NCBI GenBank assembly: GCA_032358255.1
Contig: JAULBX010008329.1
Coordinates: 1-64,000 of the forward strand
Source of the DNA: Heterotrichella gracilis
Taxonomy: Eukaryota; Sar; Xanthophyceae; Tribonematales; Xanthonemataceae
Direction: 5' to 3'
DNA length: 64,000 bases
Each line of letters starts with the position of its first letter. Positions within the stretch are counted from its first letter, which is position 1. Both the position numbers and the translations under genes were made by a program. Positions 8,820-63,400 of the stretch are shown piece by piece. The notes beneath the pieces were generated by a model. The model was given only the letters and a program-made list of their open reading frames with translations. It was not told the origin of the DNA and searched no databases.

Positions 8820-11800
8820 ATGGCCAGCCACAGCCCCCACCCCTGGCCCCACCCCCCCACCACCACCCCCCACCCCCCACCGCTCCTCCAGTCCTACGCC
8901 CTAGTCCCCACCGCCTGCCTGCTGTTTGCTGCTTTCAGCAACATAAGCCTGACGGGTCTGGTGTACCTGGGCGCCTATGGGGTGTGGGGGGCGGTGTGCA
9001 TCGGGAGGCTTCGCCTGGAGGTGGCTGAGGCGATGGGCAAGGGGCTGTGGGGGGCGGTGTCAGGTGGGTGGGTGCGGGGAATGGGGTTGTAGGTGGGGTG
9101 CGGGGGTAGTTCAGAGCAAGAAATATAAGAGGCGGGACCAGAGGGACCGAGTTTCTTTGCGCAGGTTGAGCACCGCTGACTGCTACTCTGGTCGCATTGC
9201 ATGAGTATGATTTACTGGAACCCAACCAGGAAAAAGAAGGGGAGAAAAGGACGTAGTGCCAAGACATGCTGCGTTGATGCTGATACGCCTGTCTGGCTAC
9301 CTCGCTCGCCTTCATGTGATTTATTCTTACATACTATGTGAAATCCTAGTCTACCAGGTGCCAATCACCTCACTCGCCTGTACCCCCTCCTCCCTAACTT
9401 GCAGGTGTATCTGCCCTGTTCCTCCTGCTCCAGTGCAGCCTCCAGCTAGGGTTTGCTGTGGGGGGTGCCAGGTGGGCGGAGGGGCACCCCTGGGATGACG
9501 TGCTGCACCTGCTGGGATTCCCAAAGGCGGGCAGCCCGGGGGAGCTGCTCATGGTGCGTGGAGATGCATGTGATAAGTTGGGACAAACCCTAGTGTAGGA
9601 TCGTAACCCCTCACCCAATCTTGGGCCCAGCAGCTGATGGTGCGTGGGTGCATGGGGAGGAAAACCCAAGGGTGAAGACCCTAATGGAGGGTTTATAGGC
9701 GTAAATCCTGAAAATGGACCAGCTGGTGATGGTGCATGGGGGTACATGTGACGAAATCCAAGAGAGGTGGGATAGTCTCTGAGGGAAGTTAATGGATGAA
9801 AATCCCGCACCATGCGCACCAGACCCCTGTTGCAGACCGATTCCCTCCCGCATCCCAGGTCCTCTTACCCCCCTTGCTGGCCCTCATCACCGCCGGCATA
9901 GAGGTGCAGGCAGGGCGCCGCTACCGATCACAAATGCGCCACATTTCGCAACATCCCAGCCACCCCACAGGCCGGGGTCCGGCCTCCCCTACCTCCCCTG
10001 GTGGGGGAATGGGGCAAGGGGGGGATGGGGGAGGGCTGGTGGGGAGTATCCAGTTCCTGTGGGCGGCAGGTGGGTGGTGGCGCTAAGGTTTTGATGCCGT
10101 GTGTAAAGGGTTTTGGGCGTTGCGATGCAGGGTTTCCTCCATGCCAAACATGCGGTGTCTTGCCGTCCCTGCGTCTTTTGCCGCACCCGCTTAGGGTTTG
10201 ACGTTTAGGTTATGAACAGCATCTTGAACATCTCCTGCTCAACCCACCCACTTCCACACTCCTCATTCCTTGTGATACCACCCCCCACCCTAGAAACCCC
10301 CACCGCTGCACATCCTACACACCCACACGCACACTCTTCACCCCCACCCATGTGACCCCACCCCCCCACCCTTGCCCCCACCGCTGCGCAGGCTACACCA
10401 ACGCCGCCATCGCAGCCGCAGCCGCGCTCGTCACCGCAGCGTGCAGCAGCCCCTGCCTGCTGTCCCTGCCATACCTGCTGGCGGGGGCGTGGGGTGTGTG
10501 GAGGTGGGCGCACCACCGCCCCTCTTTTGTGGCCATAGGGGCGATCAGGGGGCTGCAGGTGGGAGGGGGGAATGCTGTAGGAGCATAATTAGAGTTTCCA
10601 CATCTGTTTTCTAGATTGCAGGTGTTGTAAGGCCAATGGTCAATGGTCCTAGTTGACCAATGATGTGGCTAACCTCATGTGGTCCAACCAGAACTCAATC
10701 CTTGTAGTTGGACCTCTGTCGCGCCTCGGTGGTGGGAATGGAGAACCCTAACAGAACCCTAACAGCGCCTCCCTCCCCCCGCAGGTTCTGTACCTGTGGC
10801 ACACGTCTCTCAAACCCTAACAAAGACCCTAACAAAACCCTAACAATGCTTCCCTCCCTCTACAGGTCCTGTGTGGGCTGCACCTGTTGCTCCTGTACCT
10901 GTGGCTGGATCCTTCTTCTCTCAAACCCTAACATAACCCTTGGAAAACCCTAACAGCGCCTCCCACCTCCCGCAGGTCCTGTGTGGGCTGCACCTGTTGC
11001 TGCTGTACCTGTGGCAGATGGCGGTGGTGAGGCTGGCAGTGCCTGCGGCTGTGGCTGGGTGGATGGGGCTGTACGTGGTGGGGGAGGCGCAGGGGGGGGT
11101 GCTTGTGGCACAGGTGGGTGGGTGGTGGTGGGTGGTGATGGTGGGGGTGCCCATGTGTGTGATTCTGGCAGGGTTCATGCTAGCTAGGTAAGGTGCTGGA
11201 GAAGGTAGGGGCACAAACCCTTTGGAATTAATCAAGCATATCGGGTGGAACTACTGGAGGTAGGGCACAAACTCTTTGGGGTTCTATCTAGCCGTAGCAA
11301 AGAGTGGGTGTATCACTGACAGAGTGTGCGGTGGTGCAATCTGTAAGGGGTGGGATTACACCCCACGAACTCATCACCCTACAAAACCCTAACCTAGGGT
11401 CCCTCCCACCCCCCGCAGGTCTGCCAAGTGGCCAGCCTGGTCGTGCTGTATGGCGCCAGCGGCTTCTACATCAACAGCATGCAGGGCCAGGGGGCGGAGG
11501 GGTCTGGCCACGGTGGGGGTGTGCTGGCTGGTGTGCTGTCCTCACTCATGTCTCGGAGGGGTGGGGAGGAGGGGTATGAGCGGGTGAGGGGTGGGGATGG
11601 GGGGGAGGGTCGTGGGACAGGGATAGTAATGAATGCATAGGGAAGGGCAAAGGGGGTGCAACGACGGTGGTGGTTTGGCAAACACCATGGTGTGTTTTCA
11701 GTATAGTAGGGGGTCGTGTGGTCTAGCATTGGGTGTGCCACTATGTGTGTGTTATTGGTGGGAGGGTCAATGTGACTGGCTGTGGATTTCTGAAATGGGT

Positions 11801-60400: not shown

Positions 60401-63400
60401 CTACAGTTAATACATCTGGATGTTAATGGAATGACGCCATGGGGAGCCTTAAACTCCCTAATCGAGGCCAATGCTGTTTGGCCAGAATAGGGTATTTATA
60501 GGGTCTGAGGGGCTTTCAAGGGTTTGGGTTAGGGTACGTCCTGCTCACCTTCCCCCAGACATGGGCACACGCACTCCTTGCCCACCAGGTGGGAGTACCT
60601 AGGGTCATTAGGGTCTTGCTAGGGTTACCATGCTATTGTAGGATCAGATTAGGGTTTCAAGTTAGGGTCTGCAGGGCTCACCTTCCCCCAGACATGGGCA
60701 CCACGCACTCCTTGCCCAAACAGGTGGGAGTGCCTAGGCTCGTTAGGGTCATGCTAGGGTTACCATGCTACTGTAGGGCCACATTAGGGTTTCAGATTAG
60801 GGTATGTCCTGCTCCCCTTCCTCCACACATGGGCACCTCGCACTCCTTGCCAACCAGGTGGGAGTACCTAGAGTCATTAGGGTCATGCTAGGGTTACTAT
60901 GCTACTGTAGGGTCACATTAGGGTTTCAGATTAGGGTATGTCCTGCTCACCTTCCTCCAGACATGGGCACCTCGCACTCCTTGCCCACCAGATGGGAGTA
61001 CCTAGGGTCATTAGGGTTTACAGCAACCGCAGTATCCCCCAGAATGGTTTCTGGGCGGGTGGTGGCCACAGGCAGGTGGGCATCGGAGTCGGCCACGGGG
61101 TATTTGAAGAAGTAGAGGAAGCCCTGCTCCTCAGAGTACTCCACCTGGGGGTGGAAATGGGGAGGAGGAAGGGGGGGGCAGGTTAGGGGCAGGGTGGAAT
61201 CTGGGATGATGGTGCGTGGTGCAAGGTAGGCATTGCCTATTCTTCACAAAAAATAAACACTATTTTGCCCTTACTACTTTCCATACTTTCTGCACAATTT
61301 CTGTGTAGTATTGTGATAACACTTTTTCCTAAAGATATTTTGGTGGGTGGGTGATTTGCACACAGCTGGGTGTTGCTCTTGCATGCCTCCGTGTGTATGC
61401 AGGCCTACACACACAAACCCCTCAATCCCACACACCCCACACCCCACACACCCACCTCCAGGTCCGACACCGCAGTGCGCAGCAGGGGCGACCAGTTGAC
61501 CAGGTAGCTGCCCTTGTACACAAGACCCTTCTCGTGCAGACGCACAAACGCCTCGGCAACAGCATCTGCAGGCACACAGTGCTTTATCAGTCACACGTGT
61601 CTCAGCATTACAGCGCGGTTAGCAGTTTGCGCATGCTGTGTGATTTTGTTTGGTATTGTTATGCTTAATGACATGTGCATAGTAACATAGCCACCTAACA
61701 CATGCAATAAATCAATCAGTGCATAAATTCATATATGAGCCGTCTAGGGTGACCCCTTCCCCCTACCCCCACCTGTCAAACCCTCGTCTAGGGTAAACCT
61801 CTCCCTGCTCCAGTCGCAGGATGCCCCCAGGCGCCTCAGCTGCTTCGTGATGAACCCCCCATACTGCTCCTTCCACTCCCACACCCTGGCAGTAAATTCC
61901 TCCCTGCCCAGGCCCAGCCGCGACTCCCCCTCTGCGGCCAACATCTTCTCCACCACGGTCTGGGGACGGGGATGGGGAAGGTGGGGTTCAGTACTTGCAG
62001 TGTATTCTGGGCCATGTATGCATGCGGTGTGCATACATGCGGTGTGCACACATGCAGTGTGCAATACATGTGCATGTGCATGTGGGAATGATGATGCCAT
62101 TTAGCCTACTGGTCTCTTCATCTGGAACCCTGCCGTATAATCCCTGCGTGGTCCGTACAATCCCTGCGTGGTCCGTTCCTGGGACAAATTGCAGCTACTC
62201 TACTACAATTCCACGCATGCGTCACTGAGGCGCGACGGGTACGTTATTATCCTATTCTACTCCCCCACGCGCGCCGCCGCTGGCATCCACCAACAGTGGT
62301 CGAAGCCCACGACACAATGAATCCTGTCTCCCAGCCACACCTCCCCAACTCCATTTTCCATCCCCGCACCTGCGTGGCAATCCCCGCGTGGTCGGTCCCC
62401 GGGACGAACAGCGCCGCCCGCCCCTGCATGCGCGCCACCCGCACCATGATGTCCTGCACAGTGGTACCCATGGCATGACCCATGTGCAGACGACCAGTGA
62501 CGTTGGGCGGGGGCATGGATACCACGAAGGGTTTTGCGCTAGGGTCCTCGCAGGGCTTGAAGTAGCCGCTGCTCTCCCACCTGCAAAGCAAGGGGTTTAG
62601 GGTATTCGGTAAAGGGTTTCAGGGTTTGGAATTAGGGTGCTCCCAAGAATTGGAGTAGCCACTAGCGGCACCGTACTGAGGTTTCAATGTGCCACACAGC
62701 ACTTGGGATAGGTGCAACACAAAGCAATACTTTACAGGGGCACCTCTCAACCCTTTTTGCGCTCTGGCCGTCCCCCAGCCAGTGTGCATGACCCTAAATT
62801 TAGCCCCCAAATTATGCCCACAGGAAGTATGTGCGATGCTTGCTCATGCAATGCTATACCATGTCAGCGTGCATACACTAGACCCTGGCCTATGCCAAGG
62901 CCGCCCGATGACGCCCTAGATTAGGGTCCACCAATGACGTTCAGAGCAGTTCAACGCAGACACAGGTTGTATTGTAGGGTTTAGGGTTTATGGTTAGGCG
63001 CTCAATACTAGTGCCAGGATAGAGGTGCGTGGCGCCGCATGTACAAGCCTGACTGCTAATTTGGTGCATTGCTTAAATGCATGTAACTAACTAACGGAGG
63101 CGCTCAGTAGTAGTGCTCACCATTGGTATATTGCCTGCTCACTGGCCTCTGGGTCAAAATTCTTGGGCAGGTCCTTGGTGCGGGGGTTGATGGGGGGCAT
63201 GGGGGGGGCGCCTGAGAGGGTGGGGAGGGTGGGCGGGTCAGCTGGGGGGGGTGGAAGTAAATGGCGGTGGAACCGTGTCCATGCCGTCCAAGGGTCTGTC
63301 CAGGCATGGCGACAATGACGACCCGCGTGGGTATAAAATGGATGTCCTTGGTTCAAGTGACATAATACCCCCCTTGCTGGTGTCCTAGCACGGCGAGGCA

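Follow-up and report, generated by a model that had tools for sequence, protein, structure and literature searches.

It is accepted that introns can change through tandem duplication. The rice insertions described as tandem duplications by Vaughn and Bennetzen in 2014 and the paired-nick duplications described in Arabidopsis by Schiml in 2016 are both reportedly attributed to break repair. Introner-like elements, for their part, carry an element sequence common to many sites. A single duplication across an intron-exon boundary created a new intron in a potato RdRp gene, with support from RNA sequencing (PMC4974935), and AGGT-type tandem duplication is listed in a review as an intron-gain route (PMC3443670) that is ascribed to Rogers 1989, Hellsten 2011, and Gao and Lynch 2009 (via PMC3443670 and PMC4974935). 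Also documented are an interstitial telomeric repeat of the horse, inserted at a staggered break with a flanking duplication (PMC7215372), and small tandem duplications made where CST-guided Pol alpha-primase fills in breaks that have 3' overhangs (PMC8355091). Here, these cases are compared with a stretch of 64,000 nucleotides from Heterotrichella gracilis (contig JAULBX010008329.1, positions 1 to 64,000), referred to below as the window, in which introns of the PIEZO, PLATZ and valyl-tRNA synthetase (ValRS) genes carry copies of the adjoining exon edges. Such a copy, which comprises the exon part with its splice site, is termed an echo.

Occurrence and spread of the echoes

The main sample comprises 314 kb, formed by the window and 250 kb from thirteen other contigs of the same genome (an assembly of 68.5 Mb in 903 contigs), and a fresh sample of 20 kb adjoining the window was taken afterwards. 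Contigs were drawn from a list of heptamer-bearing contigs, which makes the sampling non-random, and positions within them were picked blind. There being no pre-existing annotation, genes were predicted by a gene finder trained on the same 314 kb to which it was applied; after five rounds it returned 91 genes and 287 introns, with AG/GTRNGT at donors and CAG/G at acceptors. The genes of the window and of the sampled contigs are intron-rich, and PIEZO and ValRS were recovered as long spliced genes. Individual exon calls next to echoes may nevertheless be wrong, because the gene finder split PIEZO at an echo-rich spot, called some echoes exons and read through a 90-base array in ValRS.

Copies of exon edges in neighbouring introns are real and general, which confirms the observation of a first-pass annotation of the window. 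Direct repeats lying 60-500 bp apart give 134 matches in the 314 kb under a single filter, compared with 1 for inverted repeats and 0 in one first-order resample, which argues against chance or low complexity as their source. These matches group into 92 arrays. Additionally, a search of up to 110 coding bases per predicted exon edge against its own intron finds an echo at 59 of 557 edges (39 of 279 on the donor side and 20 of 278 on the acceptor side), the reversed-intron control giving 1. Runs of N were excluded from the junction-pair, indel, edge-search, full-length-unit and majority-class analyses, and were kept in the direct-repeat count, the listing of 92 arrays and the closest-pair and any-pair classifications. 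The complexity filter dropped 25 places, some of which are kept in the junction-pair set, where the filter was twice as lax; switching it off adds 12 junction arrays and 1 intron-only array.

The period of the closest pair is 58-240 bp in 88 of the 92 arrays and reaches 378, a wider range than the units of 53-180 bases first described, and its distribution modulo 3 is about flat (21/17/16). Copy identity spans 70 to 100%, with both point and indel differences. Sixteen edges have two or three echoes, and no firm age order emerges among these, since the nearest echo is the least diverged at only 9 edges, is not at 5 and is tied at 2. The spread over the genome is very uneven, six samples (L015+L016, L017+L018, L021+L022, L029, L030 and L032) having echoes at 0 of their 137 edges and three others (L023-L028) at 29 of 136. 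The echo rate per gene is unrelated to the GC content of third codon positions (GC3).

Preference for exon edges

In the sampled 314 kb, exon edges are included in duplications more often than random placement predicts. The count of junction against non-junction arrays that the first-pass annotation had proposed as a check on its idea was run on this sample and came out in its favour: assigned by majority, 62 arrays lie at junctions, 8 are intron-only, 11 intergenic, 1 exon-only and 11 at gene edges (93 in total), whereas the null predicts shares of 30, 18 and 52% for junction, intron and intergenic arrays. In this null, units of the observed sizes were placed randomly, mutated with the functional exon copies constrained and passed through the same detection, which gave integrals of 0.211 for junction, 0.170 for intron and 0.186 for intergenic arrays. 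The junction excess over it is 4.7-fold with respect to introns (p 9e-7) and 9.9-fold with respect to intergenic DNA, the 11 gene-edge arrays and the exon-only array being left out of the binomial tests. Detection bias alone does not account for it, as the simulated correction is only 1.24-fold. The excess amounts to 4.5-fold (introns) and 8.3-fold (intergenic) without two gene-poor samples, and to 8.2-fold and 7.8-fold, respectively, in the six echo-rich samples alone.

Class counts vary with the rule used. By closest pair there are 54 junction, 9 exon-to-intron, 9 intron, 12 intergenic, 5 edge and 3 exon arrays; by any pair, 59, 9, 5, 11, 5 and 3, respectively. Among full-length units (identity of at least 80%, at least 70% of the period covered), 21 are junction, 3 intron, 3 intergenic and 1 exon units (p 0.003 for junction against intron). 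In the fresh 20 kb, all 3 arrays found are at junctions, one of them with just 3 exon bases. The exon part of the copy measures 7-105 bases in 76 junction pairs, though many of the exons concerned are longer. All 76 pairs also obey the rule, stated earlier, that copies of 5' edges lie upstream and copies of 3' edges downstream. This agreement carries no independent evidence, because the rule follows from selection on coding sequence, and it was nearly forced, because only pairs whose second copy is wholly intronic were kept.

Introns are G-rich at their start and C-rich at their end, so that G-runs adjoin exons, and the density of GGG/CCC outside arrays predicts the echo rate weakly (rho 0.53, p 0.04, n 15 samples); for G-quadruplex-like (G4-like) motifs outside arrays, the corresponding values are rho 0.48 and p 0.07 (n 15 samples).

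Decay of the copies

The copies suggest the decay of unused, neutral-looking DNA, because their indels are mostly not in threes and their mismatches match one-sided decay. In exon-echo alignments, intron parts included, 157 indels are not in threes and 32 are. Mismatch by codon position is 0.086/0.071/0.178, the first and second positions being alike and the third 2.3-fold higher, which is somewhat above the 1.5-1.7 expected for a neutral echo of a synonymously evolving exon. Inside multi-copy arrays (19 inner pairs), mismatch is 0.090 in the exon part and 0.150 in the intron part, near the 1.6-fold ratio expected if one side is constrained. Differences between echoes of the same edge are likewise highest at the third position (0.171 vs 0.116 and 0.080), which is compatible with echoes having been copied from the exon on separate occasions. 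Most echoes retain their splice dinucleotide (23 of 24 pairs for AG, 40 of 52 for GT), with no sign of decoy splice sites being purged, in line with the expectation that echoes leave decoy sites in introns.

Spacers, telomere-like words and intron length

Most two-copy arrays consist of copy, spacer and copy, and plain tandem duplication is not the whole story. The closest pair is separated by a spacer of at least 15 bases in 66 of the 92 arrays, and 17 of the 22 pairs of at least 88% identity (not all of them at junctions) have a spacer with no in-register continuation in either flank. The earlier reading, in which a segment spanning a junction is tandemly duplicated and a single junction stays in use, is therefore partly supported: the edge-including excess and the decay resembling that of unused DNA agree with it, but most two-copy arrays have a spacer that is foreign to the flanks and enriched in heptamers.

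Introns with arrays are longer than those without (median 414, n 69, vs 274, n 215), as had been anticipated. In introns with one two-copy array (n 36) the median is 405; subtracting the period leaves 267, compared with 292.5 for array-free introns of the same samples (p 0.27), and subtracting the copy alone leaves 346 (p 0.0009 vs array-free introns). The whole period, and hence the spacer along with the copy, was therefore added to the intron, since the length minus the period, not minus the copy, matches array-free introns. Insertion of the edge copy at a distance, with old intron as the spacer, is disfavoured by this comparison.

Telomere-like words (AACCCTA and its rotations) are the most over-represented 7-mers, AACCCTA itself being nine-fold over a third-order model, and CCCTAAA-type words are, as originally described, frequent within and between copies. 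They cover 12% of intronic spacer bases, 11% of copied intron (a value inflated by the repeats) and 3.9% of other intron; outside arrays, they cover 1.1% of intergenic DNA and 0.45% of exons. Among 38 spacers, taken from two-copy junction pairs chosen for a spacer of at least 20 bases (range 21-192), 23 contain a telomere-like 7-mer and 15 do not, compared with 38% of matched array-free introns in echo-rich samples (p 0.007) and 26% overall. The CCCTAAA strand dominates toward acceptors, and in donor pairs the intron just past the echo is nearly free of such words.

Echo-bearing edges of the window

The first-pass annotation had claimed at least 20 echo-bearing exon edges in three genes, and 23 are counted (PIEZO 12, PLATZ 1, ValRS 10). 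They are listed below with their genes and with one further echo, in a universal-stress-protein gene, outside the range reported at first.

8820..33065, + strand: PIEZO gene, 51 predicted exons in two models split at 26376/26450 (own gene model); C-terminal part matches Pfam Piezo_THU9_anchor and Piezo_cap
10744..11015, + strand: PIEZO acceptor edge 10976, echoes with periods 81-191, AAACCCTAACA words present
13558..13704, + strand: PIEZO donor edge 13596, echo with period 108, 82%, echo donor GT now GC
18279..18544, + strand: PIEZO acceptor edge 18484, echo with period 195, 94%, spacer of 124 bases
19663..19930, + strand: PIEZO acceptor edge 19880, echoes with periods 105 and 212
21152..21326, + strand: PIEZO donor edge 21184, echo as full-unit tandem, period 77
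21438..21625, + strand: PIEZO acceptor edge 21571, echo with period 115, 90%, 42-base heptamer-rich spacer, called an exon by the gene finder
22474..22610, + strand: PIEZO acceptor edge 22585, echo with period 93
24344..24685, + strand: PIEZO donor edge 24448, echo as near-complete tandem unit, period 180, 90%
26107..26506, + strand: PIEZO donor edge 26176, echoes at 26296 (90%) and 26437 (77%), marginal extra copy near 26580
29138..29375, + strand: PIEZO donor edge 29195, echo with period 174, 94%
29832..30109, + strand: PIEZO donor edge 29910, echo with period 194, 82%
30453..30572, + strand: PIEZO acceptor edge 30550, echo with period 82, 95%
51513-52294, - strand: PLATZ gene, Pfam match, poor model with a first exon of 3 bases
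51748..51934, - strand: PLATZ acceptor edge 51764, echo with period 104, 80%
54431..63200, - strand: ValRS gene (own gene model), Pfam tRNA-synt_1, Anticodon_1 and Val_tRNA-synt_C, PDB 1gax
54239..54494, - strand: ValRS last coding edge 54431 with stop codon, echo in the 3' flank with period 190, 89%
54599..54746, - strand: ValRS exon beginning at acceptor 54648, weak echo of 32 bases, 81%, the weakest of the 23 and without a shuffle test
54888..55062, - strand: ValRS donor edge 55039, echo with period 129, 39 identical bases
55521..55793, - strand: ValRS donor edge 55689, echo with period 161, 80%
56912..57369, - strand: ValRS acceptor-edge array (56914-57263), 90-base unit in 4 to 5 copies, open in frame
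57476..57630, - strand: ValRS exon ending at donor 57560, echo with period 114, 93%, older copy near 57387
57992..58348, - strand: ValRS donor edge 58252, echo with period 203, 80%
59052..59318, - strand: ValRS acceptor edge 59112, echo with period 190, 88%
59461..59623, - strand: ValRS donor edge 59601, two echoes, period 62
60519..61017, - strand: ValRS donor edge 60951, three echoes, period 132-135
1390..1557, - strand: universal-stress-protein gene, acceptor-edge echo with period 129

The copy at 54900, at first called identical, has 39 identical bases but matches at 45 of 46 overall, and the copy at 26580, described as barely visible, could not be secured (a 14-base exact word, score 28 vs a shuffle maximum of 26). 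Since the stop-codon edge of ValRS is also copied, what matters may be the coding edge and not the splice site itself. The 90-base ValRS unit is a multiple of three and open in frame, so that retaining the intron would insert repeats of 30 residues into the enzyme; the read-through model has four copies at a place where PDB 1gax has one.

Other observations on the samples

Elsewhere in the window, a five-exon gene on the + strand (34465-37820) encodes a proline-rich protein, pherophorin-like by eye, in which no echoes were detected; a single-exon open frame (45236-45946, + strand) has weak matches to phosphotransferase and Kdo-kinase families; and a direct repeat of about 680 bases (47480-48161 and 49372-50034), 1.9 kb apart and 69% identical, lies outside the predicted multi-exon genes. 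Regarding sample identity, open frames of 300 codons, the measure used to look for bacterial DNA, occupy at most 16% of the bases in each of 16 samples, and a Pfam scan of one frame of two samples gave no match. The chaperonin and aminoacyl-tRNA synthetase loci, judged by eye, are not doubled as a mixed culture of two algae would have them, and a tRNA search found none in 19 loci. On contigs C111, C68, C442 and C1, aminoacyl-tRNA synthetase matches each fall within one open frame (683-1169 residues), whereas the versions elsewhere have many exons; these are possibly bacterial contigs.

A proposed repair mechanism and its alternatives

A plausible mechanism, to which a probability of roughly 0.45 is given, is that the repair of breaks near exon edges duplicates the edge around filler DNA and that the result is buffered by splicing. 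Staggered breaks would occur near intron ends, where breaks may be commonest; fill-in on both sides of the break, followed by rejoining with an often telomere-like filler, would produce the copy-filler-copy layout, and the duplicated stretch would cover the exon edge, mostly over 26-160 bases. One splice site would still join the exons and leave the coding sequence unharmed, while the outer copy would be removed as intron and decay neutrally; some arrays may later have grown to three or more copies by ordinary repeat expansion. Staggered-break fill-in is proposed because the layout, the direct orientation and the telomere-like filler match it, and enzymes of the CST/Pol alpha-primase type may act here, by analogy with described fill-in. 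A tentative and somewhat doubtful extension is that the exon-intron boundary, or the G- and C-rich intron DNA that flanks it, is a recurrent breakage hotspot where repair duplicates the edge around telomere-like filler, so that introns would lengthen from the exon side outward and come to hold a layered archive of earlier exon sequence, complete with decoy splice sites that look live.

Several observations weigh against edge-centred break repair with telomere-like filler. The spacer is almost absent in 26 of the 92 arrays, and a looser local alignment finds that 18 of 66 spacers resemble a flank, where about 3 would be expected to pass the 95% threshold; ordinary tandem duplication therefore makes up part of the set, and both kinds occur. 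Spacer composition resembles that of ordinary intron ends. The strand order expected of telomerase is TTTAGGG after the left copy and CCCTAAA before the right: the spacers of donor arrays have the wrong strand at the echo-side end and a mixed exon-side end, and those of acceptor arrays fit at the exon-side end and are mixed at the echo-side end. Heptamer density outside arrays does not predict the echo rate, either by sample (rho 0.38, p 0.17, n 15) or by gene (rho 0.09, p 0.57, n 46). Nor do random breaks account for the finding that, in 33 of 37 untied two-copy pairs (a count made by eye), more exon than intron sequence was copied. Finally, the strictest subset of young full units (11 junction, 2 intron, 0 intergenic) gives only p 0.05 for junction against intron, and all binomial p values assume independent arrays, though arrays cluster in genes.

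Among the alternatives, random tandem duplications of 60-240 bp could arise everywhere with no preference for edges, those in exons being lost by selection and those at junctions being tolerated by splicing and recognisable for longer. The nearly spacerless arrays, the flank-like spacers, the longer detectability of simulated junction arrays and the marginal youngest set all point this way, but the small detectability correction falls far below the excess over introns and intergenic DNA, the excess remains within the echo-rich samples and most well-preserved spacers do not continue into a flank, which leaves this account unlikely. A second possibility is an ordinary tandem start after which the exon rewrites its echo by gene conversion or unequal exchange, so that exon-anchored arrays persist while intron-only ones fade. 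The intron part of the copies is short, the third-position excess between echoes looks as if they had been taken from the exon at different times, and likeness between echoes, over 21 comparisons, is 0.89 for the exon-derived part and 0.68 for the intron farther out. Those comparisons, however, include outermost copies whose outer flank lies outside the unit, the mismatch inside arrays fits plain one-sided decay, and the order of ages is no help; rewriting by the exon is accordingly judged quite unlikely. Fast erosion of the intron halves as the whole cause, hinted at by the same likeness values, is unsupported inside arrays.

It is very unlikely that the echoes are functional, that is, alternative splice sites or exon ends kept by selection. 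Their conserved AG and GT, the third-position excess and the in-frame ValRS array would suit such a role, yet the indels are mostly not in threes, first and second codon positions differ alike, periods show no preference for multiples of three and the enzyme structure has a single copy of the unit. A mobile element, whether introner-like or telomere-ended, that duplicated a long target on insertion would produce the copy-spacer-copy layout and the telomere-like words in spacers; when the 38 spacers were searched against the 314 kb (low-complexity filter on), those of the matches listed that lie beyond their own array are short and several are telomere-like, rather than a shared spacer sequence, and this origin is highly improbable. 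An assembly artefact, through unmerged overlaps or collapsed haplotypes, is scarcely credible for copies that differ by points and indels over such a range of identity and favour exon edges, although one case, in which two 153-base copies of about 99% identity flank a run of N (L013+L014, 4658-5091), is likely a scaffolding error.

Comparison with known systems

With echoes of graded divergence at about 10% of exon edges, the genome provides a dense natural series in which intron lengthening, tolerance of decoy sites and new exon ends may be followed. Earlier states of the neighbouring exon may survive in the echoes, introns may be lengthening through repeated duplication beside their exons, and the question is raised of why mutation should favour exon boundaries. 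A literature search at the level of titles and abstracts, covering few subscription papers, found no description of systematic exon-edge echoes, which is weak evidence of novelty.

Compared with duplicated alternative exons, which are whole and keep the frame, the copies take in only a short exon part and have indels that are mostly not in threes. The horse insertion shares with them a direct flanking duplication around telomeric DNA (PMC7215372), whereas the spacers of the present arrays are telomere-like only in part and their sites are concentrated at exon edges. Fill-in by CST and Pol alpha-primase likewise gives small local direct duplications through a complex that also acts at telomeres; in the accessible part of its description, overhang fill-in and joining appear without a large spacer or a preference for exon edges (PMC8355091), and directly adjacent copies are the exception here, in the 26 arrays that lack a spacer of at least 15 bases.

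There is also a resemblance to tandem-duplication intron gain. As in the AGGT type, the duplications are short, local, within genes and direct, and the extra DNA is spliced out, with two thirds of the arrays (62/93) crossing a junction. The arrangement proper to that type, in which donor and acceptor occupy equivalent points of the two copies, is found in 0 of 274 introns (best in-register identity 0.45, in an ungapped test from which indels could hide old cases), and the suggestion that echoes seed new introns is unproven. The potato RdRp gene, the sole boundary-crossing case found in the literature, likewise has an intron-exon boundary duplicated in tandem together with its acceptor (PMC4974935); it represents a single event that created a new intron, whereas in H. 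gracilis the arrays, of which there are dozens, add length to introns already present and their outer copy appears to be unused.

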